Of a stretch of 64,000 nt of DNA, positions 48,180 to 63,301 are shown piece after piece; the first letter of the stretch is position 1, and each line of letters begins with the position of its first letter. The DNA comes from Lachnospiraceae bacterium. GTDB taxonomy: Bacteria > Bacillota > Clostridia > Lachnospirales > Lachnospiraceae. The notes under the pieces were generated by a model. The model saw only the letters and a program-made list of their open reading frames with translations, searched no databases and was not told the origin of the DNA. The stretch lies in assembly GCA_017936885.1 (NCBI GenBank), contig JAGBEO010000011.1, forward strand, positions 186,001-250,000. Direction: 5' to 3'. The position numbers and the translations under genes are program-made.

Positions 48180-50975
48180 ATGCAAAACAAAAAGAATAAT
48201 AAGAAAAGAGAAAAGCTTCGGGATATATCATTTGAAGAACTGCTCATGGATGAAGACGGAGCGTTTGATGATGAGGACGCGGATACTGTCACGGATGATA
48301 CGCTGGAATTCTTAAGTCTTGATGATGAAATGATCGAGACTTATAACCGAAGTCATAAAGCATCTAAGGGAAAGGCAACTGCCGCCAGAGAGCTTGATGA
48401 AGAGTACGAAGACGAAGAAGACGACGAATACGGCGATGAAGAAGATGACGAGTACGGCGACGAAGAGGACGATGAGTACGAGGATGACGAGTACGGCGAC
48501 GAAGAAGACGATGAGTACGAGGATGAAGAGTACGAAGACGAAGAAGACGATGAGTACGAGGATGAAGAGTACGAAGACGAAGAAGACGATGAGTACGAAG
48601 ATGAAGAGTACGATGACGACGAGTACGAATATGACGCCTACGCAGAGGACAGTGCTTTTGTAAGATTCAAGGAATTTTTGGGGAATATGAGTACCCTTGA
48701 CGTGGTAGTGGCAATGCTCGGCATTGTAGTGCTGGTAGGTGTGTTTGTTACCGGAAGTCTTTATGTCAATGCCAGGATGACGGAGAAGCAGGTGGAGGCT
48801 TTCGCATCAGTAGGAGATGAAATCAAAGGCGTATCCGTGATCGGAGAAGGCGGATTGATTGCCGTGTCGGAATCTGCGAAGCTGACCCACATGGTTGAGG
48901 CAGAGGAAGAAGAACAGGAGCAGGAAGAAGAAAAAGAAGAGAAAAAAGAAACGATTGAGGTATCCCTGCGTCTGACTTCCATCCAATCTGATTTAAAGAT
49001 CAAATTTGTCAATCAGGAAACAGGCAAACTGATCGGCAGCGTACCTTTTGAGGTAGAAGTTGCCGGCGGTAAGAAGACATATAATCTGAAAGATGAAGAT
49101 AAAGACGGTATCATCTATCAGACGGGAATAGAATCCGGAAGCTATAAGGTGACAATTAAGCCTTTTACCGGAACTGATTATCAGGAATATAAGCTGCCTT
49201 CTCAGGCAAGTGCTGTGGAGGTTACGGATAAGATCGCATACAAGAAGGTAGATGTGGCGGACGAGGTTAAGACAGAAGCGGAAGTGAATGCGGCAGCAGA
49301 GGATACTGCACAGCAGAATACAGTGGTAGAGTCTGTATTGACAGATACCGTGGAGTGGGTGGAGTCCACTAAGACACCGATTGAGGATGGCGAGGAAAGC
49401 TATGAGAAGGTGCCGGAGAGTGATATTCCTAATCCGTGGACGGTAAGCAGTGCTTATAGAAAGCTTGTGGAAGAAGGCTTGGAGGAAGAACAGCCGGAGA
49501 CACGCCCGGAGGATGTGACGGTGTCCTTGGATAAGAGCAGTGTTACATTGAAGAAGGGAGAAAGTACTTCCGTGAAAGTGTCTGTAAGCGACAGCAGTGC
49601 CCGGTATGTAGTGGAATGGAGCAGCGCGGATTCTTCCATTGCTACAGTCAGTGACGGCAGTGTTACCGGTGTGGGTGTGGGAAGTACCTCGATTACTGCC
49701 AGAGTTGCCGTGGGCAGTATAGTTACGGATTTGTCATGTTCTGTGACTGTAGAAGAAGCACAGAAAGATGATGATAAAGAAGAGGAAAAGGATGAGGATG
49801 CCGATAAAGACGATGATGATAAAAAAGATGAAGATAAAGAAGTAGTCTATACCAAAGTCTCTATCGATGGAAGTAAAGAGGTTGCGGTAGGTAAAACCAT
49901 AACGCTGAAGGCATCCACGGAACCCAAAGACGGCAAGGTAAGCTGGAGCAGTGAGAATGAGAAGATTGCGAAGGTAGATAAGAATGGTGTGGTAACCGGT
50001 GTGGCAGAAGGAACGGTTAAGATCAAGGCTGTCTGCAAGAATGAGGAGACAGACGATGTTTCTGCTTCTTATGAGATAACGGTTAAAAAGGAGGCAACGG
50101 CAGACGGCAGCACAAAGCTGAAAGATAAGGACGGTAACCAATTGTATTACCGTAATTCCAACAAGGAATATATAGAAGCGACCTATGATGACTACGGTAA
50201 GAAGGAGACCTTCTATAAGAAGACCACTAAGGTATCCAAGTATAAATATACCGGATGGCAGACAATTGACGGACATGTTTATTATTATGACAAAAACGGT
50301 AACGTGGTAACCGGAGAGCAGGTTATTCAGGGGGCGAAATACAATTTCGGCAGTGACGGTAAATTGTCCTCTAATTCCGGTTCCATGGGAATAGACGTAT
50401 CCAAGTGGAACGGTTCTATCGACTGGAATGCGGTGAAGAATTCCGGCGTATCCTATGTTATTATCCGGTGCGGCTACAGAGGTTCTTCCACGGGTGTTTT
50501 GGTTGAAGACCCGAAGTTTAAGAGTAATATTAAAGGCGCCAAGGCTGCGGGACTTAAGGTAGGTGCTTATTTCTTCAGTCAGGCAACAAATGAAGTGGAA
50601 GCGGTAGAAGAGGCATCCATGGCGGTTAATCTGGTCAGCGGTTACGGACTGAATTATCCGATTTTCCTGGATGTGGAAGCCAGCGGCGGACGCGGTGACA
50701 GCATCAGTAAGGAGACAAGAACTGCTGTATGTAAAGCTTTCTGTGCAACAGTACAAAACTCCGGTTACTCTGCAGGTATTTACGCCAACAAGACATGGCT
50801 TACGGAGAAGATCAATACGGGCAGCTTGACATCATATAAGATCTGGCTGGCACAATACGCCAGTGCGCCGACCTATAAGGCTACCAGATATGATATGTGG
50901 CAGTACTCTTCCAAAGGAAAAGTGAGCGGTATCAGCGGCAGTGTGGATATGAACATCAGTTATCTGAATTATTAG
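48180..50975 (+). CDS. Membrane-anchored GH25 lysozyme-type wall hydrolase with acidic repeat tract and Ig-like domains
   Basis: A 931-aa protein. The cytosolic N-terminus carries a very acidic Asp/Glu/Tyr repeat tract (about residues 71-155). One membrane helix follows (about 175-197). Outside come an acidic stretch, a prealbumin-like/SpaA-type beta domain (about 268-340), two BIG2-type Ig-like domains (about 445-530 and 555-640) and a repeat like choline- or wall-binding modules (GWQTIDGHVYYYDKNGN). Last is a GH25 muramidase domain with Asp739 in [14 protein letters not shown] and the DxE pair Asp831/Glu833 in FLDVEASGG. It should cleave the MurNAc-GlcNAc bond in peptidoglycan. GAGAGG precedes the ATG, and a strong promoter is present. 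Confidence 0.9.
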   Translation: MQNKKNNKKREKLRDISFEELLMDEDGAFDDEDADTVTDDTLEFLSLDDEMIETYNRSHKASKGKATAARELDEEYEDEEDDEYGDEEDDEYGDEEDDEYEDDEYGDEEDDEYEDEEYEDEEDDEYEDEEYEDEEDDEYEDEEYDDDEYEYDAYAEDSAFVRFKEFLGNMSTLDVVVAMLGIVVLVGVFVTGSLYVNARMTEKQVEAFASVGDEIKGVSVIGEGGLIAVSESAKLTHMVEAEEEEQEQEEEKEEKKETIEVSLRLTSIQSDLKIKFVNQETGKLIGSVPFEVEVAGGKKTYNLKDEDKDGIIYQTGIESGSYKVTIKPFTGTDYQEYKLPSQASAVEVTDKIAYKKVDVADEVKTEAEVNAAAEDTAQQNTVVESVLTDTVEWVESTKTPIEDGEESYEKVPESDIPNPWTVSSAYRKLVEEGLEEEQPETRPEDVTVSLDKSSVTLKKGESTSVKVSVSDSSARYVVEWSSADSSIATVSDGSVTGVGVGSTSITARVAVGSIVTDLSCSVTVEEAQKDDDKEEEKDEDADKDDDDKKDEDKEVVYTKVSIDGSKEVAVGKTITLKASTEPKDGKVSWSSENEKIAKVDKNGVVTGVAEGTVKIKAVCKNEETDDVSASYEITVKKEATADGSTKLKDKDGNQLYYRNSNKEYIEATYDDYGKKETFYKKTTKVSKYKYTGWQTIDGHVYYYDKNGNVVTGEQVIQGAKYNFGSDGKLSSNSGSMGIDVSKWNGSIDWNAVKNSGVSYVIIRCGYRGSSTGVLVEDPKFKSNIKGAKAAGLKVGAYFFSQATNEVEAVEEASMAVNLVSGYGLNYPIFLDVEASGGRGDSISKETRTAVCKAFCATVQNSGYSAGIYANKTWLTEKINTGSLTSYKIWLAQYASAPTYKATRYDMWQYSSKGKVSGISGSVDMNISYLNY
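48390..48640 (+). repeat. In-frame coding repeat encoding an Asp/Glu/Tyr tract
   Basis: Degenerate tandem units of GAAGAAGACGATGAGTACG type. The protein repeats are first EEDDEYGD-like, then EEDDEYEDEEYED-like, each three times with small variations. Such arrays change length by slippage, always keeping frame if whole codon units are gained or lost. Confidence 0.8.
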
Positions 50976-50977
50976 AC

Positions 50978-51006
50978 TTGGAATTCTGTGCCATTTCTAC
51001 TATAAT
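50978..51006 (+). promoter_or_regulatory. Sigma-A promoter for rfbB and the downstream cassette
   Basis: TTGGAA (50978-50983), 17 bases and a perfect TATAAT (51001-51006), starting just 3 bases after the GH25 stop codon. No terminator is seen between the two genes, so read-through is possible too. Confidence 0.6.
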
Positions 51007-51136
51007 AGAGCAGAAAGACGATGGCACAAAGAGGCAGACCGCATTGAGCGGAATGTACATTTTGTCAGGTGAGTTTGCGGATGCGCTGCGACCGCAGGCC
51101 TGATATTATCAAAGCAGCGCAGAAATGAGGAAGAAG

Positions 51137-52219
51137 ATGAGAACATACCTTGTAACAGGCGGTGCCGGATTTATCGGTTCCAATTATATTCATTATATGT
51201 TTAAGAAATATGACAATGAGATCAGAATCATTAATGTGGATGCATTAACCTATGCAGGCAATCTGGAGAACCTCAAAGATATAGAGGATCGGGAGAACTA
51301 TACTTTTGTAAAGGCGGACATCTGTGACAAAGAGGCGATTGCTGAAATCTTTGCAGAGAATGATATTGACAGAGTGGTACACTTTGCGGCAGAAAGTCAT
51401 GTGGACAGAAGCATTAAGAATCCGGAAGTGTTCGTGCAGACTAATGTACTTGGCACGGCTGTGATGCTTAACTGCGCCAAAGCGGCATGGGAGCTTCCTG
51501 ATGGCACCTATAAAGAGGGCAAGAAGTTTCTCCATGTGTCTACCGATGAAGTGTACGGTTCCTTAGAGGAAGACGGCGGTTATTTCTATGAGACAACCCC
51601 ATATGCGCCCCATAGTCCCTATTCGGCAAGCAAGGCAAGCTCGGATATGCTTGTAAAAGCTTATATGGACACCTATAAATTCCCGGCAAATATTACCAAC
51701 TGTTCCAACAATTACGGACCCTATCAGTTCCCGGAGAAGCTGATTCCGTTAATTATCAATAATGCTTTGCAGGGCAAGAAGCTTCCCGTGTACGGTGACG
51801 GCAAGAATGTGCGTGACTGGTTATATGTAGAAGACCATGCCAAGGCTATCGATATGGTACAGGAACAGGGCAGACTGTTTGAAACCTACAATGTGGGCGG
51901 ACATAATGAGAAGCAGAATATTGAGATTATTAAGATTATTCTTGAGACTTTGCAGGAGATGCTTGCAGAAGATGATCCCCGTAAGGCGCTCGTCAGCGAA
52001 GATCTGATTACCTATGTGGAGGATCGTAAAGGGCATGACAGAAGATATGCCATTGCACCGGACAAGATCAAAGCGGAGATCGGCTGGGAGCCGGAAACGA
52101 TGTTCAAGGAAGGTATCCGCCGCACAATCCAGTGGTTCTTCGAACATGAGGACTGGATGAAAAATGTGACAAGCGGCGATTATCAGAAGTATTACGAAGA
52201 TATGTACAAGACAAAATAG
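51137..52219 (+). CDS. rfbB: dTDP-glucose 4,6-dehydratase
   Basis: Second step of dTDP-L-rhamnose synthesis: dTDP-glucose to dTDP-4-keto-6-deoxyglucose. The NAD motif is YLVTGGAGFIGSNY. The substrate and catalytic region has HFAAESHVDRS, VSTDEVYGSL and YSASKASSD (the Y-x3-K pair). The late part has NCSNNYGPYQFPEKLIP, strongly typical of RfbB/RmlB. It is 360 aa. GAGGAAG directly before the ATG at 51137 decides the start over one four codons upstream. rfbA and rfbC follow further downstream, separated by the CotH/VTC cassette. rfbD is not found in this window. Confidence 0.95.
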   Translation: MRTYLVTGGAGFIGSNYIHYMFKKYDNEIRIINVDALTYAGNLENLKDIEDRENYTFVKADICDKEAIAEIFAENDIDRVVHFAAESHVDRSIKNPEVFVQTNVLGTAVMLNCAKAAWELPDGTYKEGKKFLHVSTDEVYGSLEEDGGYFYETTPYAPHSPYSASKASSDMLVKAYMDTYKFPANITNCSNNYGPYQFPEKLIPLIINNALQGKKLPVYGDGKNVRDWLYVEDHAKAIDMVQEQGRLFETYNVGGHNEKQNIEIIKIILETLQEMLAEDDPRKALVSEDLITYVEDRKGHDRRYAIAPDKIKAEIGWEPETMFKEGIRRTIQWFFEHEDWMKNVTSGDYQKYYEDMYKTK

Positions 52220-52239
52220 AAACATGGCAGGGATGTGAG

Positions 52240-54939
52240 ATGAGTCAGTTGACAGCAGGAATTGTTTTATTCCTAATACCGGGGCTGATGCCTGCACATG
52301 TACAGTATAAGAGAGATGAGAAGGGCAGTCGGTTATCTTTGGCAGTAAATGCGTTGACAGATGCCTTTCTCATTCTTGTTTGTACCTATGGCTGTATGTG
52401 GCTTTTGTTTGGAGACGCTGCACTTTCTTTGGTGAAAGGGGCAAAACCGGATTCCTTTTATAATCATTATATATTGTTGTATGTTCTTTATTTTGTGGCG
52501 GCATATGGCTTTTCCTTTTTGCTGATGCTATGGACCGCATGGAAGTACCGGAAGGAAGTGCTGATTGACAGAAGACATTCTTTTCTGTTTCTGGTGACGG
52601 TATTGTGGGTTATTTTGTTTGCAGGAATCGGATACGATGATTATGCCGGGAAGCATATTGTGATTAATGAGGTGTGCAGTCACAATCTGTCCCTGATTTT
52701 GGATGATGACGGAGAAAACAGTGATTATATTGAGATATATAACCCTTCCTTTACGACAGTGTCGCTGGATGGCTGGTATTTGGCAGATCATGAGAATGTG
52801 CTGCAGTCAAAACCCTTGTCGGGCATCTATATTGAACCCCGTTCCTATCTGGTGTTATTTGCCGGAGGAAATGCCGGGGGAAGCGGCTTGTCCGGGGAAC
52901 AGGAGGAGCAATACGGCTATCTGGACTTTAAACTGAAAGAAGCGGGAGAAACACTGACACTGGCAGATGAGGACGGACGTGTGGTTGACCGGGTGGAGGT
53001 GCCCGTACTTACAACAGATGTTTCCTATGCAAGATTGCAGGACGGGCAGGATTGCTGGAGTATTGTCCGAAACGGTACGCCCGGTAAAACAAATGAAGGA
53101 CTTGCCGCTTATGTGATTCCAACGCTGGAGGAACCGGTGTTTTCAGTAGAAAGTGGATTTTATGAAGAACCTTTTGTGTTGTCACTGACAGCAGGAAAGG
53201 ACGAAAAGGTATATTACACACTGGACGGTTCCGAGCCGACGACCGAATCCAAATGCTATACGGAACCGATTGCCATACAGGATAACAGTGACACGGAGAA
53301 TTATTATGCCAATATAGGGGGCATTGCGAGAGAAGGCGACTATCAGCCCGCTTACCGGATTGATAAAGGCACTGTGGTAAAAGCAATATGTGTAAATGAG
53401 ACAGGAGAGGTCAGTGAAGTTGCTTCACAGGTATATTTTGTCGGCTTTGATGAAAAATCAGGATATGACAATGTGAAAATAATGTCCGTGGTAGGTAACC
53501 CGGCGGATTTTTTCTCGGACGAGAGGGGCATCTATGTTTTGGGAGAAGACTATCATGAGTGGAAGGATTACAGGGAAAGTCTTGGATATTCCTTCGCTGC
53601 CAATTACACGGATACGGATAAAACAGGGGAAAGAGCGGTAATGGTTACCCTTTTTGATGCGGATAAAGACATGCTGTCGCAGGAGAAGATCGGTGTCAGA
53701 ATCCGCGGCGGAGCGTCTAAGGGATTGAGACAGAAGGGATTTAATTTCTATGCGCGCACGGAGTACGGCGAGGACGTTCTGGATCTGTGCCGTAAGATGC
53801 TGCGGACATCGGGTTCCATTGATACGAACAAAACCATGCTGCGGGATGTCTTCAATCAGTCTCTGGTGGCAGACCGGGATCTGGAGACACAGCCCGGGGA
53901 ACCCTGTGTACTTTTTCTGAACGGTGAATACTGGGGATTATATAATTTACAGGCGCGTTTTACAGAGGATTATTTTGAAGAAAAGTATGGGATAACAGAA
54001 GATAATCTGATTATGATCAAGCAGGATCGGCGTGTTTCCATCGGGGAAGAGGCAGATATGGAGCTGTATACGGAGTTGGTTTCCTATGCGCAGCAGCAGG
54101 ATCTGTCGCAGGAAGATACGTATGAGACGATCGGGCAGATGATGGATGTCCAGAGCTTTATCGACCATTACTGCTTCGAAATCTATATTGGGAATACGGA
54201 CTGGCCGTTAAATAATGTGTGCTGCTGGCGCAGCAGAGAGAGCGGCGGAGATTCTGTGTATACGGACGGCAGATGGCGCTGGGGTGTCTATGATACGGAC
54301 GAATCCACGGGAATCTATCCGGAGGGCATGAGCACCTATTCTTCCAATGCATTTTTAGAGGAAGCACACTGGTTTGGAAGCCCTACGACCATGCCGCTTA
54401 TGTCTAATCTGCTGGAAAACGCGGAATTTAAGAAGCAGTTTGTGCTTACCTTTATGGATATGGCAAATGAGAATTTTGTCTATGAAAAGGTACATGAGAA
54501 GCTGTATGAACTGGCATCCGTGTACGCAGAGCCCATGGTAGAGACTTATCACCGGTTTAACGGGGATGAGTATACATTAGATACTTTCTATGAAAATATA
54601 GGGAGAATAGATGAGTTTTACCGATACCGCTATGAATATATTGTGCCGTATATGGCAGAGGCAATGGAACTGACGGGCAGTCTTGAAACAGTGACGCTGC
54701 AGACTACACCCGGCGGCAGTATTGTGCTTAATACGATAGAACCGGATCTGGTTTCGGGACAATGGAGCGGCTCTTATTATACGGATTATCCGGTTACGGC
54801 AACCGCGGTTGCAGAAGAAGGGTATCGTTTTGCCGGATGGCAGGGAAGCTGTGAGAGTACGCAGGAGACGATAGCAGCGGAAGTGACAGAGGGCGGTATC
54901 GTGCTGAGCGCGGTTTTTGTACCGGTGAATGGAGACTAA
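52240..54939 (+). CDS. Membrane-anchored lamin-tail/CotH kinase-like protein, first tandem copy
   Basis: An 899-aa protein. The N-terminus has about four membrane helices (residues 5-125). Outside follow a lamin-tail domain (about 135-270: INEVCSHNLSLILDDDGENS), a chitobiase C-terminal-like beta domain (YYTLDGSEPTTES) and a CotH kinase-like domain. That domain has IRGGASKGLRQKGFNFYAR, MLRDVFNQSL, EYWGLYNLQARF, and the metal-side DTDEST in WGVYDTDEST. At the C-terminus is an InlB-type B-repeat (GYRFAGWQGSCEST). CotH proteins are kinases; the target here is unknown. It starts 20 bases behind rfbB and sits 2 bases from a tandem paralogue. Confidence 0.85.
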   Translation: MSQLTAGIVLFLIPGLMPAHVQYKRDEKGSRLSLAVNALTDAFLILVCTYGCMWLLFGDAALSLVKGAKPDSFYNHYILLYVLYFVAAYGFSFLLMLWTAWKYRKEVLIDRRHSFLFLVTVLWVILFAGIGYDDYAGKHIVINEVCSHNLSLILDDDGENSDYIEIYNPSFTTVSLDGWYLADHENVLQSKPLSGIYIEPRSYLVLFAGGNAGGSGLSGEQEEQYGYLDFKLKEAGETLTLADEDGRVVDRVEVPVLTTDVSYARLQDGQDCWSIVRNGTPGKTNEGLAAYVIPTLEEPVFSVESGFYEEPFVLSLTAGKDEKVYYTLDGSEPTTESKCYTEPIAIQDNSDTENYYANIGGIAREGDYQPAYRIDKGTVVKAICVNETGEVSEVASQVYFVGFDEKSGYDNVKIMSVVGNPADFFSDERGIYVLGEDYHEWKDYRESLGYSFAANYTDTDKTGERAVMVTLFDADKDMLSQEKIGVRIRGGASKGLRQKGFNFYARTEYGEDVLDLCRKMLRTSGSIDTNKTMLRDVFNQSLVADRDLETQPGEPCVLFLNGEYWGLYNLQARFTEDYFEEKYGITEDNLIMIKQDRRVSIGEEADMELYTELVSYAQQQDLSQEDTYETIGQMMDVQSFIDHYCFEIYIGNTDWPLNNVCCWRSRESGGDSVYTDGRWRWGVYDTDESTGIYPEGMSTYSSNAFLEEAHWFGSPTTMPLMSNLLENAEFKKQFVLTFMDMANENFVYEKVHEKLYELASVYAEPMVETYHRFNGDEYTLDTFYENIGRIDEFYRYRYEYIVPYMAEAMELTGSLETVTLQTTPGGSIVLNTIEPDLVSGQWSGSYYTDYPVTATAVAEEGYRFAGWQGSCESTQETIAAEVTEGGIVLSAVFVPVNGD

Positions 54940-54941
54940 AT

Positions 54942-57671
54942 ATGTCAGACTTAGTGATGGGTATTTTATTTTTTGTTTTGCCCGGAATCGTACCGGTTTG
55001 CATCCGGCAGGGAGTGGGTGATATCAGGAAATCTGCTGCCGGATCAATTGTTTCGGTATGCATCTATGATCTTGCCGCCCTGCTGTGCGGCTATGGTACG
55101 TGTCTGCTGCTGTTTGGCGAAAATGTGTTTTCTCCGGGATTCGGTACACCGGAGGGGACGTTAGCAGCGGAATATGTTCTGTTTTATGTTGTTTATCTGG
55201 TGGCAGCGTACATGGCGGCATTGCTTTTGGCTGTGGCAAAGAGCGCGCTTGTCCGCGAACGAATCAACGGCAAGGCTTGCACGGCAGTGTGTACGGTGCT
55301 TCTTAGTCTCCTGGCAGCGGGAATCGGTTATGATTCCTATGCGGGGAAGCATATTCTGATCAGCGAGGTATGCAGCAATAACCTGACGATTACGCTGGAT
55401 CTGTATGGAGAGAGCAGTGATTATATAGAACTGTACAATCCGTCCCAAACCGGTGTATCTCTGGAAGGTTTTATGCTTACGGAGAAAGAGGGAACCGAAG
55501 GCGTATCCCTTGACGGGTATTATCTGCCGCCCCGTTCCTATTTGCTGCTGTATGCCAATGGAAGGGCAGAGGCAGAAACCAATTCCATTGCGCTGCAGAT
55601 CAGTGCGGAAGGAGAAAGCCTTTATTTGTATGACGCAAATGGCGTTTGTGTTGATAGTATTCAAATCCCGAAATTACCGGCAGATACGGTGTATGCACGT
55701 ATTGGAGAAGATATGGGAACGTGGAGCAGCGCCCGATATGGCTCCCCGGGGGAAGATAATTTTACTCTGACTGCTTATACGGTACCCAGTCTTATGGAAC
55801 CTGTGCTTTCGGCTGAGAGCGGATTTTATGACGGGGCCTTTATGCTCTCCATGGAATGCGGAGAGGGAGAAACTGTTTATTATACACTGGACGGCTCCCT
55901 GCCTACCAAACAGTCCCTGGTTTATACGGAACCGATTGAGATAACGGATGTGAGCGGACGAGACAACTACTATGCCGGTATACAGAATACTTCTATCTAT
56001 GGGAATTATGCTCCGTCAGATTTACTTGATAAGGCATGTGTCGTGCAGGCAATAAGTGTGAACCAGTCGGGCGAGATGAGTGATGTTGCAACAGCCGTTT
56101 ATTTCATTGGATATGACGAAAAGGCTGGTTACGAACATATTAAAGTACTTGCCATGAACGTAGATCCGGTGGATTTATTTTCAGAGGAAAGAGGGATCTA
56201 TGTTCTGGGGGAGACTTACGAGGCTTATCTTCAGGACTGTGAGGAACCGGAATATACAGCCAATACGCCGGCTAATTATGGAAATCGAGGCAGGACGGCG
56301 GAGCGTACGGCGCAGATTGCATTGTTTGACAGTGCAGGGACGCTTTGCGTAGAAGGCAAAGTAGGGATTCGCATTCATGGCGGGTCCACGAGAAGCTACA
56401 GGCAGAAGGGCTTTAATTTCTATAGCAGAGAGCAGTATGGGGAAGAAACTGCGGATATGGGGAAATATATGCTCAGGACCTCCGGAGCGAAGGATACGTA
56501 TCTGACCATGCTGCGGGATGTCTTTATCCAGTCTCTTGTGGAAGACCGCGCCGCTGCCATTCAAAGGGGAGAACCCTGCGCACTGTTTATCAACGGAGAG
56601 TACTGGGGGCTGTATAATCTGCAGGAACGATATTCAGCGGCTTATTTTGAAGAACATTATCAGATTCCTGAAAATAATCTGATCGTGTTAAAGGATTCCA
56701 GAGCCAACGATGTCACAACGACGAAAGTGTCTGTGGGAAGAGAAGCGGATAAGGAGGCCTATGAGGCGTTATTGTCATATGCGCGGGAGACGGATTTAAG
56801 TATCTCGGAGAATTACCGCGAAATCGCTGCGATGATGGACATGCAGAGCTTTATTGATTATTTTGTGACAGAAATGTATGTGGGGAATACGGACTGGCCC
56901 GTGAACAATGTCTGTCGGTTCCGCAGCCGTGAAGTCAGGGGAGGTTCTGCTTATGAGGACGGCAGATGGCGCTGGGCGCTTTATGATACGGATGAATCCA
57001 CGGGAGGCGGCAGTACCGGATATGATATGAATCCCTTTGTGGGGGAAACCTATTATCATAAGGTCAGTCCGCTGGATACGGAGCTGATGGCGAATCTGCT
57101 GGAGAATGAAGCGTTCAGGCAGCAGTTTGTCATAACTTTTCTGGATATGATAAATAAAAACTTTGCGTATTCGCAAGTTCATGATAAACTATATGAGATG
57201 GCAGATGTCTATGCACTGCCTATGGTAAACAGTTATCACAGATTTAACAAGGAAGAATTTACGCAGGACAGCTTCTGGGATAATATTGCGGTTCTGGATG
57301 AGTATATGAAAAACCGTCCTGATTACATGATCTCCTATCTGGCAGAAGCTATGGGATTATCCGGTGACACAGGAAAGGTAAGGCTTGAGACGGTGTGCAG
57401 GAATCGGGCAGAGGATGCCGGAGCGGAAGCTGTTGAATCGTCTAAAGACGGCGGTTATATTATCCTCAATACGATTACCCCTGTATTAGATCAGGGGGAG
57501 TGGGAAGGAGATTATCTGACGGATTATCCTGTTACGGCGACGGCCGTTGCCGGGGAAGGGTATCGGTTTGTCTGTTGGGAAGGAAGCGCAGAATCGACAG
57601 AGGAAACAATAGAGGCTGACGTGCCGGAAGAAGGCATATGTCTGCGGGCTGTTTTTGAATTAAAAGAATAG
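54942..57671 (+). CDS. Membrane-anchored lamin-tail/CotH kinase-like protein, second tandem copy
   Basis: A 909-aa paralogue of the preceding protein with the same order: four N-terminal helices, lamin-tail domain (ISEVCSNNLTITLDLYGES), chitobiase-like beta domain (YYTLDGSLPTKQS), CotH domain and C-terminal B-repeat. The CotH landmarks are IRIHGGSTRSYRQKGFNFY, MLRDVFIQSL, EYWGLYNLQERY and WALYDTDEST. Similar residues run through the full length, so the pair arose by tandem duplication. They have diverged beyond recent copying, which suggests distinct roles. GGAG precedes the ATG, and the stop of the first copy is 2 bases away. Confidence 0.85.
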   Translation: MSDLVMGILFFVLPGIVPVCIRQGVGDIRKSAAGSIVSVCIYDLAALLCGYGTCLLLFGENVFSPGFGTPEGTLAAEYVLFYVVYLVAAYMAALLLAVAKSALVRERINGKACTAVCTVLLSLLAAGIGYDSYAGKHILISEVCSNNLTITLDLYGESSDYIELYNPSQTGVSLEGFMLTEKEGTEGVSLDGYYLPPRSYLLLYANGRAEAETNSIALQISAEGESLYLYDANGVCVDSIQIPKLPADTVYARIGEDMGTWSSARYGSPGEDNFTLTAYTVPSLMEPVLSAESGFYDGAFMLSMECGEGETVYYTLDGSLPTKQSLVYTEPIEITDVSGRDNYYAGIQNTSIYGNYAPSDLLDKACVVQAISVNQSGEMSDVATAVYFIGYDEKAGYEHIKVLAMNVDPVDLFSEERGIYVLGETYEAYLQDCEEPEYTANTPANYGNRGRTAERTAQIALFDSAGTLCVEGKVGIRIHGGSTRSYRQKGFNFYSREQYGEETADMGKYMLRTSGAKDTYLTMLRDVFIQSLVEDRAAAIQRGEPCALFINGEYWGLYNLQERYSAAYFEEHYQIPENNLIVLKDSRANDVTTTKVSVGREADKEAYEALLSYARETDLSISENYREIAAMMDMQSFIDYFVTEMYVGNTDWPVNNVCRFRSREVRGGSAYEDGRWRWALYDTDESTGGGSTGYDMNPFVGETYYHKVSPLDTELMANLLENEAFRQQFVITFLDMINKNFAYSQVHDKLYEMADVYALPMVNSYHRFNKEEFTQDSFWDNIAVLDEYMKNRPDYMISYLAEAMGLSGDTGKVRLETVCRNRAEDAGAEAVESSKDGGYIILNTITPVLDQGEWEGDYLTDYPVTATAVAGEGYRFVCWEGSAESTEETIEADVPEEGICLRAVFELKE

Positions 57672-57745
57672 AGATGGTATAGGACGAAGCCGGATTGATA
57701 AACTGATGACAGTCAGAATTTACGGCGCTTCGGAATGGAGGAAAA

Positions 57746-58084
57746 ATGGTTTGTGTCATTATTTTATTATTGTTAGTACCGGGTATGCTCACATGGAAAA
57801 TTGCAGGTAAGCAGGAGCTGTCAACATGGAAGGATGTGGTCAGGGCATTGGCAGGCTGGCTGGTGCATGATCTGATCATTGTCTGTCTGGTGTATGCAGT
57901 ACTGTACGTTACCAAAGGGGTTAATACAGTCAGCTTTTCTACGGCTTATCTGGGAGAAGAAGTGTACTATTCTATTTATGACATCAGCTTCGTATTCCGG
58001 TATTCTGCACTGGCGCTGTGTGCGGCAGCAGGGCTGGGTATCCTGGAGAGAATCATCGGAAAGCTGATCGGCAGGAGAAAGTGA
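57746..58084 (+). CDS. Small membrane protein resembling the N-terminal module of the CotH proteins
   Basis: A 112-aa protein with about three helices: residues 1-15 (ending in VPGMLTWK), 32-53 and 83-102. The pattern of a hydrophobic start with a PG motif, an Asp-Leu in helix two, a Gly-x-x-S outer loop and a final helix followed by a basic tail matches the N-terminal 125 residues of both CotH proteins upstream (IPGLMP, LPGIVP). It could be a free copy of that anchor. A perfect GGAGG precedes the ATG. The next gene begins 5 bases after its stop. No function is known. Confidence 0.7.
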   Translation: MVCVIILLLLVPGMLTWKIAGKQELSTWKDVVRALAGWLVHDLIIVCLVYAVLYVTKGVNTVSFSTAYLGEEVYYSIYDISFVFRYSALALCAAAGLGILERIIGKLIGRRK

Positions 58085-58088
58085 GCAT

Positions 58089-58940
58089 ATGAGCGCTAGA
58101 GTAAGAGAAAAGAGCATGATTGCCATATTGTGTGCCGGGATGCTGCTGTGTGCCTGCGCGGGCAGTCCCTCTGACAGTGGAGAAACTGCGGCGGATCAGG
58201 AAGAGTATGCGGGCTTTGTGATTACAAGACAGGATCAGCAAACGGATGCCGCAGAGGCAGAAGAGATAGACTTGGGTACCTGCGGTGAGAGGCTTATGAT
58301 TACGGAAGGCGGAGAGTATCTTCTGCATGGCAGTATGGAAGGACAAGTCATCATAGATACCTATGAGGATGAGCTGGTACACCTGTATCTGTCGGGTGTG
58401 GAGATAGATTCCTTGCAAGGCCCGGCAATCAGTGCAGTTTCAGCTTCAAAATTGATTGTGACACTTGTGTCAGATACAGAAAATATCCTGTCCGATACAC
58501 CTGATTATGAGGGGTATGAGGATACGGAGAGCTGCCTTTACAGTGCCGCAGATCTTACGATAAACGGAGACGGTGCACTGTCGGTGTACAGTTATCACGA
58601 GGACGGCATCCGCAGTAAGGACAGGGTCAAAATCATAGACGGTAAAATTGCTGTACAGGCGAAAGGCGATGGTATTCGCGGCAATGACGGTATTGTCATG
58701 AAGGCGGGGACGGTGCAGATTCAAAGTGAGGCAAACGGTCTGCGTACGGTCAACCACAGTGTAAATCCCAGAGGCTGTGTGGAAATATCCGGAGGCAGTA
58801 TTCAGATTACGTCCGGCAGAAACGGAATCAGTGCGGCTTCCGATTTGCATATCCGCGGCGGCAGATGCAGCGTGTATAGTGTGGAAGAAGCTATCTGGGC
58901 AGAAGGTACAAAATATATTGACGAAGGTTGTGTAGAGTGA
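58089..58940 (+). CDS. Lipoprotein with carbohydrate-binding-like beta-helix domain (DUF4353-like)
   Basis: A 283-aa exported protein with lipobox LLCACAGS; the mature part begins at the Cys. After a short acidic linker come beta strands in repeat form: IIDTYEDELVHLYLSGVEI, SASKLIVTLVSDTENIL, LTINGDGALSVYSYHEDGI, and ISGGSIQITSGRNGI. I associate these with the carbohydrate-binding domain of the DUF4353 type that accompanies CotH and VTC genes. It is cut off after about seven rungs, slightly short for the family. It overlaps the following VTC gene by four bases, so the two are translationally coupled. Confidence 0.75.
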   Translation: MSARVREKSMIAILCAGMLLCACAGSPSDSGETAADQEEYAGFVITRQDQQTDAAEAEEIDLGTCGERLMITEGGEYLLHGSMEGQVIIDTYEDELVHLYLSGVEIDSLQGPAISAVSASKLIVTLVSDTENILSDTPDYEGYEDTESCLYSAADLTINGDGALSVYSYHEDGIRSKDRVKIIDGKIAVQAKGDGIRGNDGIVMKAGTVQIQSEANGLRTVNHSVNPRGCVEISGGSIQITSGRNGISAASDLHIRGGRCSVYSVEEAIWAEGTKYIDEGCVE

Positions 58941-59644
58941 ACGCGGTAAAATACAGACACGAATATAAATATCTGATTGATGCCATGCAGCAGGGAATGC
59001 TCAGAATGTATGCTGCGGGAACCCTGCAGCCGGATGCACATGCGGATGAGAACGGAGAGTATCTGATTCGCAGCCTGTATTTCGACAGCCTGGAAGACGC
59101 CTGTTTTTATGAGAATGAGAATGGCGATGATCCCCGGGAAAAGTATCGGATACGGTTTTACAACTGCGACAGCAGCCGCATCAGTCTGGAATGTAAGGCG
59201 AAGACGAGGACCATGACGAGGAAGACTTCCTGTCCGATTACGATAAATCAGTGCAGAAGCTTTATGGACGGAAGGATACCGGAACCGGACAGAAGCGTCT
59301 CACCCAGGCAGGCAGCGATGTTTTGCCAGATGAAGCTTCGGACATTAAGGCCGGTTGTCATAGTGCAGTATATGAGAACACCGTATATCCATAAAGCAGG
59401 GAATGTCCGGGTCACATTTGACTATAACATTGCCTCTTCCAATGATATAGCAGGATTTCTGGACTCTGAGATATCTCTTAGACAGATATTGCCCACAGGG
59501 CAGAGTATCCTGGAGGTGAAATGGGATGAATTCCTGCCATCCTACATCAAGGAGCAGTTAGAACTGGACTCTTTGCAGTGGACCAGTTTTTCTAAATATT
59601 ATTTGTGCAGAAAATATAATTGCTACGGAGGAATCAGAGTATGA
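58937..59644 (+). CDS. VTC domain polyphosphate polymerase-like protein
   Basis: A 235-aa cytosolic protein consisting of a VTC domain only. The tunnel-lining motifs are all visible: RHEYKYLID, IRSLYFDS, EKYRIRFYN, ISLECKAK, VIVQYMRTPY, VRVTFDYNI and ILEVKWDEFLP, that is the basic residues and Glu pairs of the polyphosphate-polymerase fold. Yeast Vtc4 makes polyphosphate from ATP. The GTG start at 58937 overlaps the stop of the lipoprotein gene, with GAAGG upstream. The frame opens three codons earlier at a TTG. It overlaps the DUF4956 gene by four bases, a conserved pairing in bacteria. Confidence 0.88.
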   Translation: MNAVKYRHEYKYLIDAMQQGMLRMYAAGTLQPDAHADENGEYLIRSLYFDSLEDACFYENENGDDPREKYRIRFYNCDSSRISLECKAKTRTMTRKTSCPITINQCRSFMDGRIPEPDRSVSPRQAAMFCQMKLRTLRPVVIVQYMRTPYIHKAGNVRVTFDYNIASSNDIAGFLDSEISLRQILPTGQSILEVKWDEFLPSYIKEQLELDSLQWTSFSKYYLCRKYNCYGGIRV

Positions 59645-60315
59645 ATTTTGCAGATATTTTTAAGAAGTCTTTTTTGGAAGGGTATGCTTCCAGCCGGATT
59701 GACGTGGCGGAAATTATTATTTGTATGTTGATTACGGTGCTGATCGCTGCGTATATCTTTATGGTTTACCGCATTTTAAACAGAAATGCATTTTATAACC
59801 GGAATTTCAACCTGTCTTTGATAGCACTGGCTGTCATTACAGCGGCGATTATTCTGACCATTCAGTCTAATATTGTTATTTCCCTCGGTATGGTGGGTGC
59901 TTTGTCTATTGTAAGATTCCGTACGGCAATCAAAGATCCCATGGATCTGGTGTTTTTATTCTGGGCGATCAGCATCGGTATTATCTGCGGAGCAGGATTT
60001 GCCATTGTAGCAGTGATTGCATCGGTTATCATAACTGTGATAGTATTATTATTTGAAAGAATATCCGTTGATAAGGCGGCAGTGATTCTTTTGGTAAATA
60101 CCACTGATTACAAGACGGAGAGTCAGATCATGAACATCGTGGAAAGCCATTGCAGTATGTATAAGGTAAAAGCGAGAAATCTGACGAAGACGAAACTGGA
60201 TATGGCAGTCGAAGTCAAAACTGACAAGGGTGCCGGTATGGTAGAGAAGCTGATGGATTTGGAATGTGTTACTTCTGCATCCCTGGTAGATCATGACGGG
60301 GAGGTAACCTTCTAA
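59641..60315 (+). CDS. DUF4956 membrane protein
   Basis: A 224-aa protein with about four membrane helices in residues 20-140 and a soluble C-terminal ACT-like domain. It shows VISLGMVGALSIVRFRTAIK, with a conserved charged loop (RFRTAIKDPMD), as in DUF4956. The family is typically encoded beside VTC genes, and a role in polymer translocation or as a membrane partner of the polymerase is plausible (inference). The ATG at 59641 overlaps the VTC stop, with GGAGG 8 bases upstream. Transcription probably ends or pauses in the 160-base gap behind it. Confidence 0.88.
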   Translation: MNFADIFKKSFLEGYASSRIDVAEIIICMLITVLIAAYIFMVYRILNRNAFYNRNFNLSLIALAVITAAIILTIQSNIVISLGMVGALSIVRFRTAIKDPMDLVFLFWAISIGIICGAGFAIVAVIASVIITVIVLLFERISVDKAAVILLVNTTDYKTESQIMNIVESHCSMYKVKARNLTKTKLDMAVEVKTDKGAGMVEKLMDLECVTSASLVDHDGEVTF

Positions 60316-60332
60316 AAGATCGGGTTTTGTCA

Positions 60333-60358
60333 GGAAGAATGCATTTGCGGATTCTTCC
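60333..60358 (+). other. Hairpin in the DUF4956-rfbA gap
   Basis: GGAAGAAT and ATTCTTCC can form a perfect 8-base stem over a 10-base loop. No T tract follows, so it is more likely an RNA-processing or attenuation element than a terminator. Confidence 0.35.
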
Positions 60359-60475
60359 CATGAAATGACAGCATGTTTAAGAGAAGGACATAAATTCGCA
60401 CAATTAGGTAGACGCTGTGACGCGTTTCGCATATGCCTATAAATTTGAGGATGAGAAAGGAGAATGGTTATAGAC

Positions 60476-61345
60476 ATGAAAGGTATTATACTTGCAGGCG
60501 GTTCCGGTACAAGATTGTACCCGCTGACGAAGGCGATTTCAAAACAAATTATGCCGGTGTACGATAAGCCCATGATTTACTACCCGCTGTCAACATTGAT
60601 GCTGGCAGGGATCAGAGATATACTCATTATCTCTACTCCGAGAGATTTGCCGGTATTTAAGGAGCTCTTCGGCACAGGAGAGCAGTTGGGACTGCGGATG
60701 GAATATGCGGTACAGGAATATCCGAGAGGACTTGCCGATGCTTTTATTATCGGTGCGGATTTTATCGGGGATGACAGTGTTGCTTTGGTTCTGGGCGATA
60801 ATATATTCTATGGACAGAGTTTCTCCAAAGTACTGCGGGAAGTAGCGTCCAGGGAACAGGGAGCGACTATTTTCGGCTATTATGTAAGAGATCCCAGAGA
60901 GTATGGTGTGGTTGAGTTTGATGAAAACGGCATGGCGCTTTCCATTGAAGAGAAGCCGGAACAGCCCAAGAGTAATTATGCAGTGCCGGGATTATATTTC
61001 TATGACAATGATGTGGTGGAGATTGCTAAGAATGTGAAGCCCTCTGCCAGAGGTGAGATAGAGATTACCAGCATCAATAATGAATATCTGCGCAGAGGAA
61101 CGCTGCGGGTGGAGACATTGGGACGAGGTTTTGCGTGGTTAGATACCGGCAATCACGATTCCCTGTTAGACGCGGCGGATTTCGTGGCGGCATTCCAGAA
61201 GAGACAGGGACTGTACATTTCCTGTATCGAAGAGATTGCATACAGGAGAGGATTTATTACCAAGGAACAGCTGCTTGCATTGGCCGAACCGCTGATGAAG
61301 ACAGCCTATGGCCAGTATATTGTAGAGGTTGCAAATGGGCTCTAA
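60476..61345 (+). CDS. rfbA: Glucose-1-phosphate thymidylyltransferase
   Basis: First step of dTDP-rhamnose synthesis: dTTP plus glucose-1-phosphate to dTDP-glucose. The nucleotide-binding motif is [16 protein letters not shown], then [16 protein letters not shown], the metal Asp in LGDNIFYG, and [19 protein letters not shown]. Family-typical [12 protein letters not shown] comes near the end. It is 289 aa, full length. AAGGAG stands 12 bases before the ATG at 60476; another ATG four codons earlier touches this ribosome site and is less likely. It overlaps the GH25 gene that follows. Confidence 0.95.
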
Positions 61346-62684
61346 GAGTATAAAAAGAACAATGCTCGCCATGATAGCAATGTTTATCGTGCTGGTTGCG
61401 GTGATAGCCTTCACCAATCTGGACATGGTAAAGCAAAAGCTTGGTTTTTCTGCACCGGAACAGGCGCAGGAGACGGCGGTGATAGCGGAAGCGGATACGG
61501 ACGGTGGACAGATAGGTAATGATTTGTCTGCTTTCCTGCGTGATGAGACTTTTTTCGATCCGGAAGTGAAATTCAAGAGTATTGAAACATATTCCGGCAA
61601 AAACGTATTTCTCGTGATGAGTTCCGTGGCGAAGGATCTGCGCATTATGGTTGTGGACAGCGTGGGAAAGCTGGTAACGGGAGCCGCTTTTAAGGTAAAA
61701 ATACAAGGGGCAGGCGAGTATGAAGATACGGATGAGGACGGTATCATCTATATTGACGGTTTGCGTGCCGGTGAATACAGCGTGTCCTTAGAGGAGATAG
61801 AGGGATATATTGTCCCGAATACCATCACTACAATTCAGGTGCGTCAGGAGATTGAATACCGGGTTCTGGATGAGATCGAATATCTGATGCTGACGGAGGA
61901 TGATGTTGACGCGGATAAGGAAGATAAGGCTGTAAACGGTGCACAAGAAGCAGCAGACGGCAGTGAACATACAGAATTACAATTCGGTAAAGGCAGCGCT
62001 AAGCTGGGAATTGATGTTTCGAAATGGAATGAAGAGATTGACTGGCAGGCTGTCAAAGAAGCGGGTGTGGAGTTTGCCATTATTCGGTGTGGTTACCGCG
62101 GCGCATCCTCCGGTGCATTGGTTATTGATCCGCTGTACGAGCAAAACATTAAGGGAGCCATTGAGGCAGAAATTCCGGTAGGTGTGTATTTCTTTACACA
62201 GGCGTTGAACGAAGTGGAGGCTGTGGAAGAAGCCAGCATGGTGATACGCCTTATAGAAGAATATGACGTAGACTATCCGGTTTTCTTGGACAGTGAGAGT
62301 GCGGGCGGCAAAGGCCGTGCGGACGGATTGGATGCGGAGGAGAGAACGAAGATTCACAAGGCATTTCTGGAGACCGTTTCGGAGGCAGGATATGAGACCG
62401 GTATCTATGCGTCTAGGAACTGGCTGAATGATGAGGTGGATATGACAGAACTGTCAGAATATAGGACATGGCTGGCAGAATACGCAGATGTGCCGACTTA
62501 TGATGAATATTATCATATGTGGCAGTATACTTCTAAAGGAACCGTAGACGGCATTGATACGCGCGTGGATCTGAATCTTTGCTATATGAACATTGATACA
62601 TCGATTAACCATGCTAAGGGTGCTGCGGGATATTCAGGCGTAGTAAGCGGAGACAGCGGCAATGTGCCTACGGGAGACGATTAA
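61335..62684 (+). CDS. Membrane-anchored GH25 lysozyme-type protein, shorter paralogue
   Basis: A 449-aa protein: a short cytosolic start, one membrane helix (about 10-30), a prealbumin-like beta domain (about 95-165), an acidic linker and a C-terminal GH25 muramidase domain. GH25 landmarks are [14 protein letters not shown] (Asp227), [23 protein letters not shown] and the DxE pair Asp319/Glu321 in FLDSESAGG. It shares these with the protein at 48180 but lacks the acidic repeat tract and the Ig-like domains. GAGG precedes the ATG at 61335, which lies inside rfbA, so translation is coupled. It lies between rfbA and rfbC. Confidence 0.9.
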
Positions 62685-62737: not shown

Positions 62738-63301
62738 ATGGGTAAGATAACAGTTGAAACATGTGAAATTGAAGGATTAAAAGTGATCACACCGACCGTC
62801 TTCGGAGACGCAAGAGGTTATTTCATGGAGACTTATAACTACAATGATTATAAGGCGGCAGGAATCGATCAGGTTTTCGTACAGGACAATCAGTCATCTT
62901 CTACGAAAGATGTGCTGCGCGGACTGCATTTCCAGATTAATCATCCCCAGGATAAGCTGGTGCGCGTGTTGAGCGGAGAAGTGTTCGATGTTGCGGTGGA
63001 TCTCAGACCTGGGTCTGCAACCTACGGAAAATGGTTTGGAGTGATCCTCTCCGCTGAGAATAAGAAACAGTTTTTTATTCCGAAGAATTTTGCCCACGGT
63101 TTCTTTGTATTATCCGATTATGCCGAGTTTGCTTATAAATGTACGGACTTCTATCATCCCAATGATGAGGGCGGTATCATCTGGAACGATCCGGATATCG
63201 GTATCGAGTGGCCTATTCCGGAGGGGACGAAGCTCGTTATGTCTGAAAAGGACACGAAGTGGGAAGGCATTCAGGCTTTTACACAGAAATACCGCAACTG
63301 A
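62738..63301 (+). CDS. rfbC: dTDP-4-dehydrorhamnose 3,5-epimerase
   Basis: Third step of dTDP-L-rhamnose synthesis. It is a 187-aa cupin with the family signature VFGDARGYFMETYN, FVQDNQSSSTKDVLRGLHFQ, DVAVDLRPGSATYGKWFG, and FFIPKNFAHGFFVLSD holding the active-site region. The His in RGLHFQ and the Asp in VAVDLR are the usual catalytic pair. The ATG has AAGGAAT about 12 bases upstream. Without rfbD in sight, the last reduction step must be encoded downstream or elsewhere. Confidence 0.95.
   Translation: MGKITVETCEIEGLKVITPTVFGDARGYFMETYNYNDYKAAGIDQVFVQDNQSSSTKDVLRGLHFQINHPQDKLVRVLSGEVFDVAVDLRPGSATYGKWFGVILSAENKKQFFIPKNFAHGFFVLSDYAEFAYKCTDFYHPNDEGGIIWNDPDIGIEWPIPEGTKLVMSEKDTKWEGIQAFTQKYRN

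Follow-up and report, generated by a model that had tools for sequence, protein, structure and literature searches.

The closest described relatives of the locus analysed here are accessory genes of Pel exopolysaccharide clusters. In Gram-positive pel clusters, genes for CotH, a poly-phosphate polymerase, DUF4956 and DUF4832 adjoin pelDEADAFG, according to the excerpts available to us (Whitfield et al. 2020, PMC7112168). The available excerpts of a 2025 paper describe SIR_1592 of S. intermedius as an MgtC-type membrane part plus ACT; deletion of its gene gives more Pel, deletion of SIR_1594 (CotH) gives less, and aggregation is altered (PMC12345266). In the same excerpts, a strain deleted for SIR_1593 (the VTC gene) still aggregates and makes Pel, the effect of the deletion being unreported, and CotH-VTC-DUF4956 synteny is said not to have been found outside the Pel locus (PMC12345266). 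From the MgtC-plus-ACT description and the 2020 paper, we infer that SIR_1592 is a DUF4956 protein. As far as these excerpts go, both papers leave open the role of CotH, the polyphosphate polymerase and DUF4956 (PMC7112168, PMC12345266).

Other systems share parts of this set. The available part of the account of C. perfringens NELoc-2 places VTC, CotH and glycosyltransferase genes together, with two VTC genes, both having a tubulin/FtsZ-annotated gene after them, and a resolvase gene between; unlike at our locus, rml genes are not mentioned in that part (PMC2879425). Our guess is that the tubulin/FtsZ-annotated genes are DUF4956-sized. In the yeast VTC complex, as excerpted, cytosolic synthesis is coupled to a membrane part in which basic residues of the helices matter for translocation, and Vtc4 R264A/R266A/E426N is catalytically impaired (PMC9911596). 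For the spore-coat kinase CotH, the excerpts available state that D228Q and D251A inactivate the B. subtilis protein and call its ATP source an unanswered question (PMC7821199).

The window, the whole stretch of DNA that was analysed, is 64,000 nucleotides long and sits on contig C23 of a 3.57-Mb Lachnospiraceae genome. Its rhamnose genes and their surroundings contain the following features.

48180..50975, + strand: surface protein with GH25, Big_2 and choline-binding-repeat parts, encoded upstream of rfbB; belongs to the operon chassis
50978..51006, + strand: promoter-like site TTGGAA-17-TATAAT upstream of rfbB; a consensus match only; the region has 32 such sites, its shuffled versions 20.1 on average
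51125..52219, + strand: rfbB/rmlB, dTDP-glucose 4,6-dehydratase; likely start 51137; TIGR01181, 492 bits, over cut-off (NCBIfam)
52240..54939, + strand: CotH protein 1, 899 aa; Pfam, membrane-domain profile and hydropathy
54942..57671, + strand: CotH protein 2, 909 aa; Pfam, same architecture as protein 1
57746..58084, + strand: 112-aa membrane protein with three hydrophobic segments; MemN profile, E 1.9e-17
58089..58940, + strand: lipoprotein whose carbohydrate-binding Cthe_2159 domain (PF14262) is short; Pfam, E 7.4e-55, lipobox in the sequence
58937..59644, + strand: VTC-domain protein, predicted cytoplasmic; GTG start; PF09359, 126.9 bits against a cut-off of 23
59641..60315, + strand: DUF4956 membrane protein; ATG start; PF16316, 46.1 bits against a cut-off of 30.6
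60464..61345, + strand: rfbA/rmlA, glucose-1-phosphate thymidylyltransferase; likely start 60476; TIGR01207, 493.5 bits
61329..62684, + strand: GH25 muramidase-like protein between rfbA and rfbC; Pfam; operon chassis, in the same place with or without the cassette
62738..63301, + strand: rfbC/rmlC, dTDP-4-dehydrorhamnose 3,5-epimerase; TIGR01221, 255 bits
63399..64000, + strand: ABC-2 (Wzm-like) export permease, start only; Pfam on locus L069

A preliminary description of this DNA had placed a cassette of six tightly packed genes between rfbB and rfbA, and its gene content and named families were confirmed with Pfam (NCBIfam for rfbB, rfbA and rfbC). All cassette genes and their rml neighbours are on one strand. 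The first CotH gene follows rfbB after 20 bp, and four of the five junctions inside the cassette are tight: CotH1/CotH2 (+2 bp), 112-aa gene/lipoprotein (+4 bp), lipoprotein/VTC (-4 bp, GTGA) and VTC/DUF4956 (-4 bp, ATGA). The exceptions to tight packing are the 74 bp between CotH2 and the 112-aa gene and the interval from DUF4956 to rfbA, which is 148 bp (ATG 60464) or 160 bp (ATG 60476) and contained no terminator-like site on the forward strand. The VTC start (GTG 58937) and the DUF4956 start (ATG 59641) both differ from those of the longest open frames. Nine other genomes of the genus show the order CotH (1 or 2)-112aa-Cthe-VTC-DUF4956-rfbA, preceded by rfbB wherever the contig extends that far; the contig of a tenth, L278, is limited to VTC-DUF4956-rfbA-GH25-rfbC. 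Since the same order recurs across these genomes, it is not due to chance.

The dTDP-rhamnose pathway is complete, with rfbB, rfbA and rfbC in the window and rmlD elsewhere on the contig (C23:3644-4474). Because rfbC is followed by the ABC-2 permease gene and then, beyond the window, by genes for Wzt_C ATPase, methyltransferase-domain and GT2 proteins (Pfam, L069), the operon product would be a rhamnose polysaccharide exported by an ABC transporter.

Like the Pel accessory module, this locus brings CotH, VTC and DUF4956 together at an exopolysaccharide locus. The three families are contiguous in the Pel module, whereas here CotH is separated from VTC by the 112-aa and Cthe_2159 genes. The cassette also differs from the module by its additional components, namely the LTD and N-terminal membrane domain of its CotH proteins, the 112-aa subunit and the Cthe_2159 lipoprotein, and by lying inside rml genes with an ABC exporter, so that its neighbours are rml, GH25 and exporter genes. 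PelG, by which alone the absence of Pel was judged, had 0 matches in the window genome, and Pfam found no DUF4832 among the ten genes scanned from rfbB to rfbC. Across 295 genomes, PelG was matched in 23 (20 over cut-off) versus 187 for VTC. CotH lies directly beside the VTC-DUF4956 pair at 16 of 40 order-level loci, 15 of them in genomes without a PelG match (L126, L138, L143, L144, L146, L149, L151, L152, L156, L159, L160 and L162 to L165), although some genomes are incomplete and PelG may be missed in single cases. The genome of the sixteenth, L150 (G277), has PelG on another contig. One listed VTC gene, G277:C4:20187, is about 2 kb away from PelG. What is new relative to the published association is a cassette without Pel, nested in rml genes, with a free membrane subunit and a lipoprotein. 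In a literature search on rhamnose, CotH and polyphosphate polymerase, none of the matches listed had all three together. As an independent module in PelG-free genomes, the set offers a function that can be tested free of Pel.

We lean, tentatively, towards a self-contained envelope module in a rhamnose operon, in which VTC-DUF4956 would provide polyphosphate and its export and CotH would phosphorylate a surface polymer; this reading is slightly more apt to be wrong than right. The operon itself bears on what that polymer may be. In the genus, rmlA was present in all 60 genomes searched, and the main rml locus has the common frame GH25-rfbB-...-rfbA-GH25-rfbC. The slot between rfbB and rfbA was examined in 44 of the 60. 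It holds the cassette in 11 (the window, L091, L092, L103, L114, L166 to L170 and L278, with L168 and L278 counted as filled though rfbB falls past the contig end), is visibly empty in 30, where rfbA directly follows rfbB, and holds another insert in 3 (L174, with epimerase, EAL/GGDEF and hybrid kinase genes; L179, with an epimerase gene; and L274). Because the rml operon is cassette-free in 30 of the 44 genomes, rhamnose synthesis goes on without need of the cassette, and the 11 filled and 30 empty slots at one operon provide a clean natural comparison. When rfbA, rfbB and rfbC of 25 of these loci were used for a tree, two changes were required to account for which loci carry the cassette, so the cassette has mostly been inherited. 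The module would have entered the slot once or twice in the lineage and then been kept, and its entry and retention in a rhamnose operon make the rhamnose polysaccharide or the surrounding wall a plausible target.

Rhamnose loci seem to have been joined more than once. A FastTree phylogeny of 188 DUF4956-VTC rows requires three changes for adjacency to rml: one for the clade that includes the window (12 rows), one for L208 and one for L238. In L208 the rfbB-rfbA slot is filled by another kind of cassette (a 653-aa polytopic protein, VTC, DUF4956 and CotH), and in L238 VTC-DUF4956-CotH is directly upstream of rfbA. The repeated adjacency argues for either a repeated tie to rhamnose loci or an insertion hotspot. 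Next to the VTC-DUF4956 pair of L208 and of L067 is a gene of 653 and 665 aa, respectively; neither had a Pfam match, and both products look polytopic by hydropathy. L255 has the order DUF4956-rfbA-rfbB; its DUF4956 frame is overlong, no VTC gene occurs before the contig end, and we give it little weight.

For a wider view, the top-scoring VTC matches in the order and in the genus supplied the loci, a non-random sample of 99 VTC genes at 97 loci (gene calling lost 1 of 100 VTC matches). Of the 99 genes, 95 have DUF4956 as their direct neighbour in the same orientation and 97 have it within seven genes; within the same distance are CotH for 51, Cthe_2159 for 32 and rfbA for 5. The association of VTC, DUF4956 and CotH, which had been called recurrent, is so in this sample. 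Cultured commensals that carry a cassette include Kineothrix alysoides (L219) and Butyrivibrio hungatei (L262). By the refuting condition given in the preliminary description, the strong form of the rml link is not supported, as homologous cassettes lie mostly away from rml, with rfbA near only 5 of the 99 sampled VTC genes. Among 100 sampled cassette-adjoining genes (of 148), 11 encode response regulator, 8 HisKA and 4 GT2 domains, versus 2 HisKA and at most 1 each of response regulator and GT2 among 100 far genes (of 126), counting the 25 commonest families per set and leaving out four rml-type loci in range. With GT2 at 4 versus at most 1 per 100 genes, the idea that these cassettes in general mark polysaccharide loci was rejected.

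The six tree rows nearest the rml clade are L195, L192, L193, L191, L189 and L190, and neighbours were viewed in four of them, with Pfam run on ten selected neighbour genes. The sister cassette of L192 lies between acetate kinase and pheST, and that of L189 near cstA and nrdD. In L193 the cassette follows a GT2 gene and precedes genes for ribosomal L23 and L2; in L195 it follows a Wzt_C ABC ATPase gene and precedes a sugar transferase gene. Close sisters thus occur in both housekeeping and polysaccharide-export settings. The few glycosyltransferase neighbours and the position of L189 and L192 among housekeeping genes count against the preferred reading.

A possible alternative is that the rhamnose location is incidental: the slot would tolerate insertions and the module would act on the envelope generally, which denies only the target and is compatible with the same chemistry. 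We take this as a serious possibility that we would not quite adopt. It fits the housekeeping sisters L192 and L189, the sampled cassettes that are mostly away from rml, and the unrelated genes held by the slot in L174 and L179. It fits less well with the separate branches that adjoin rfbA (within one and the same slot for the window clade and L208, immediately upstream for L238), with an arrangement present in 11 species genomes, or with sister L195 in an exporter locus. The link to rhamnose proposed in the preliminary description therefore stands only in part: three separate rml adjacencies on the cassette tree favour it, but rfbA accompanies 5 of 99 VTC genes and glycosyltransferase neighbours are few. 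Its further proposal, a rhamnose polymer modified with phosphate or polyphosphate, is no more than a possibility.

CotH1 and CotH2, which are 51% identical, share an architecture of N-terminal membrane domain, LTD, a chitobiase/Fn3-type module (CHB_HEX_C_1/Fn3_assoc), CotH domain and InlB-type repeat. Since CotH1 is closer to the single CotH of the rml-type cassettes L092 and L114 (62%, versus 50% for CotH2), CotH2 looks like a duplicate, common to L091. The CotH domain (residues 486-801 in CotH1, about 464-807 in CotH2) is a PF08757 match, and the CotH profile matches B. cereus CotH (5jd9, E 2.8e-20). A structure model (pLDDT 89.7) has the CotH fold, with TM 0.74-0.75 to 5jd9 and 5jda. The catalytic Asp equivalents, placed by the profile alignment with 5jd9 and the 23-residue spacing in that chain, are D654 (NTDWP) and D685 (YDTDE) in CotH1 and D651 and D682 in CotH2. 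D228 and D251 equivalents are kept in all 91 CotH sequences retained from 149 matches. The ATP site, which the preliminary description had proposed to check in a structure model, thus retains both catalytic Asp.

The cassette proteins share with the Bacillus spore-coat kinase the fold and both catalytic Asp; they differ in being predicted membrane-anchored and extracytoplasmic, in their LTD and chitobiase/Fn3-type modules and in lying in an operon of sugar genes. By hydropathy scan, a hydrophobic segment precedes the CotH domain in 129 of 133 cassette CotH proteins; among the other 4, three frames start at the domain itself (L079, L211 and L216), and the fourth, L071, lacks such a segment. Given the N-terminal segments and a basic stretch that separates segments three and four in both window CotH proteins, CotH is predicted to lie outside the cell, in agreement with the earlier suggestion of outer kinases or transferases. 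Held there by its membrane domain, which also occurs as the separate 112-aa subunit, CotH would phosphorylate a surface polymer or protein.

The 112-aa protein has no Pfam family above its cut-off and matches the CotH N-terminal membrane domain (E 1.9e-17) with the MemN profile, which was made by iteration over these same cassette loci. In L086, L095, L105 and L112, a CotH-type membrane domain is found at the C-terminus of a CotH protein. Since N-terminal, C-terminal and stand-alone forms occur, this domain appears to be a modular part, used at either end or free. The design parallels that of yeast VTC, where Vtc1 stands alone as a small membrane subunit and resembles the membrane domain found in a larger protein. 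We rejected the 112-aa protein as a Vtc1-like DUF202 subunit, as it had no DUF202 match at E 0.01 and belongs to the CotH membrane domain.

The window VTC protein found no solved structure as a single sequence at E 1; a profile of 30 VTC proteins matches the yeast Vtc4 structure 3g3q (E 1.4e-17). Vtc4 K200 was taken as the alignment anchor, and the residues compared are tunnel and metal residues of Vtc4, R264, R266 and E426 among them. K11, R71, R73, K87, K96 and Y145 of the window protein correspond to Vtc4 K200, R264, R266, K281, K294 and Y359, and R147, R158, E193, K195, S219 and K220 to R361, R373, E426, K428, S457 and K458. All 178 sequences compared share the equivalents of K200, R264, R266, K281, K294, R361, R373, E426 and K428; those of Y359, S457 and K458 are each kept in 176 (186 matches, less short or ambiguous sequences and duplicate loci). 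The tunnel on which the earlier proposal depended is therefore intact by alignment, with nine of the 12 positions invariant. With ATP as its substrate, VTC would synthesize polyphosphate on the cytoplasmic side of the membrane. Hydropathy places a membrane segment before or after the VTC domain in none of 175 cassette proteins (L071, whose frame is masked, enters only the CotH count), and VTC and CotH are predicted to be on opposite sides of the membrane. The L071 frame was rejected as a VTC-CotH fusion that would prove a joint unit; its junction codon is TAN, N-masked and likely a stop.

The likeness to yeast VTC lies in the TTM domain and the tunnel residues. In contrast to the yeast complex, the window VTC had no SPX or DUF202 match (Pfam found the VTC domain alone), its membrane partner is DUF4956, and the 112-aa subunit is related to CotH rather than to VTC. 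The lack of an SPX or DUF202 match, with a DUF4956 membrane part that is modelled only moderately, counts against the preferred reading. The same genome also carries PPK1, so VTC would not be needed for ordinary polyphosphate, which argues for a special role.

DUF4956 carries the motif GALSIVRFR, and its C-terminal domain is predicted to be ACT-like. R92 and R94 do not vary across the 185 sequences kept of 191 matches. The structure model has a pLDDT of 70.6, its membrane part being only moderate; the best 50 structure matches listed have E 3.4e-3 or worse and seem to fit the ACT-like half. From its pairing with VTC and the conserved Arg only, DUF4956 may be a channel, acting in translocation as the yeast membrane helices do. 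As the membrane partner of VTC, it would probably carry or meter the chain across, with the ACT-like domain as a regulatory input.

The same ACT-like half, with a weak MgtC match under the cut-off, also suits a regulatory module, in which VTC-DUF4956 would be an intracellular phosphate or energy sensor and CotH would phosphorylate the export or anchoring machinery, tuning the export or retention of a polymer with no polyphosphate exported. The excess of response regulator domains beside cassettes (11 of 100 flanking genes versus at most 1 of 100 far genes) points the same way, as do the Pel phenotypes in the available excerpts, with more Pel upon SIR_1592 deletion, less upon CotH deletion and an unreported effect for VTC (PMC12345266). 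We nevertheless find this rather doubtful, since it leaves unexplained both a fully conserved polymerase tunnel and the donor for an extracytoplasmic kinase.

The preferred reading of an envelope module with polyphosphate export raises the question of that donor, to which the conserved polymerase partner suggests a testable answer. As ATP is not at hand outside the cell, polyphosphate from VTC is an attractive donor for an external CotH. In its fullest form, VTC-DUF4956 would be a plasma-membrane counterpart of yeast VTC, its exported polyphosphate would be the donor with which CotH phosphorylates the rhamnose polysaccharide, and the CotH membrane domain and its 112-aa version would tether the kinase to the exporter; we consider this extension unlikely. 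A donor on which CotH depends is a poor fit because the SIR_1593 deletion strain, in the excerpts available, still aggregates and makes Pel (PMC12345266). CotH is known as an ATP user, which counts against the preferred reading.

In bacterial VTC, the yeast RQTTK is replaced by RxExK, with E in 178 of 178 sequences; the reaction may thus be of another phosphoryl chemistry, which counts against the preferred reading. This motif resembles the ExExK of other triphosphate-tunnel enzymes, and pseudokinase-fold enzymes with other chemistries exist. Another possible explanation is thus that CotH transfers a different group (such as a nucleotide or an amino acid), that VTC is a tripolyphosphatase or phosphotransferase supplying or removing activated phosphate, and that the surface modification is not a phosphate. 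The invariant Glu and the precedent of pseudokinase-fold enzymes would suit it; both CotH Asp, whose loss inactivates the B. subtilis protein, are intact, and we think it quite improbable.

In the preferred reading, the Cthe_2159 lipoprotein would bind an anionic glycan. Its Pfam alignment covers profile positions 2-204 of 262. The short protein was rejected as a frameshift remnant, since the short form, 283-332 aa in length, is common to the rml-type cassettes measured.

Two GH25 proteins lie on either side of the rml genes in the window:

48180-50975, GH25 protein
61329-62684, GH25 protein

Where contigs extend far enough, both keep their position with and without the cassette, and the pair is a constant component of the rml operon across the genus. 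In certain species, the slot between rfbB and rfbA is occupied by other genes, as seen at two loci from related genomes:

L174, 5780-12157, epimerase, EAL/GGDEF protein and hybrid histidine kinase
L179, 8190-9161, epimerase

The genome that contains the window carries an additional VTC-DUF4956 pair on the same contig, located upstream of the window at a distance of about 16 kb (G000:C23:169318-169971; L067:9270-10720). This second pair is preceded by a PIG-L deacetylase gene, and downstream of it lie genes for a 665-aa polytopic protein that matches no Pfam family and for a Big_2 protein of 1619 aa. The 20-kb stretch around this pair gave no CotH match. Three more CotH proteins are encoded in this genome outside the cassette:

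window 5639-7420, CotH as the only Pfam match
G000:C23:131521, CotH protein
G000:C9:25615, CotH protein

Within the stretches inspected around these three, no VTC match was close by.

Two-component genes were enriched among the genes directly adjoining the VTC-DUF4956 cassettes L086 to L165 of related genomes. A response regulator domain was present in 11 of 100 genes sampled next to these cassettes, compared to at most 1 of 100 sampled away from them. VTC-DUF4956 pairs close to the Lachnospiraceae ones were also observed on MAG contigs labelled Treponema (L201 and L239), with DUF4956 identities to the window protein of 52% and 48%, respectively, reflecting either transfer or mis-binning.
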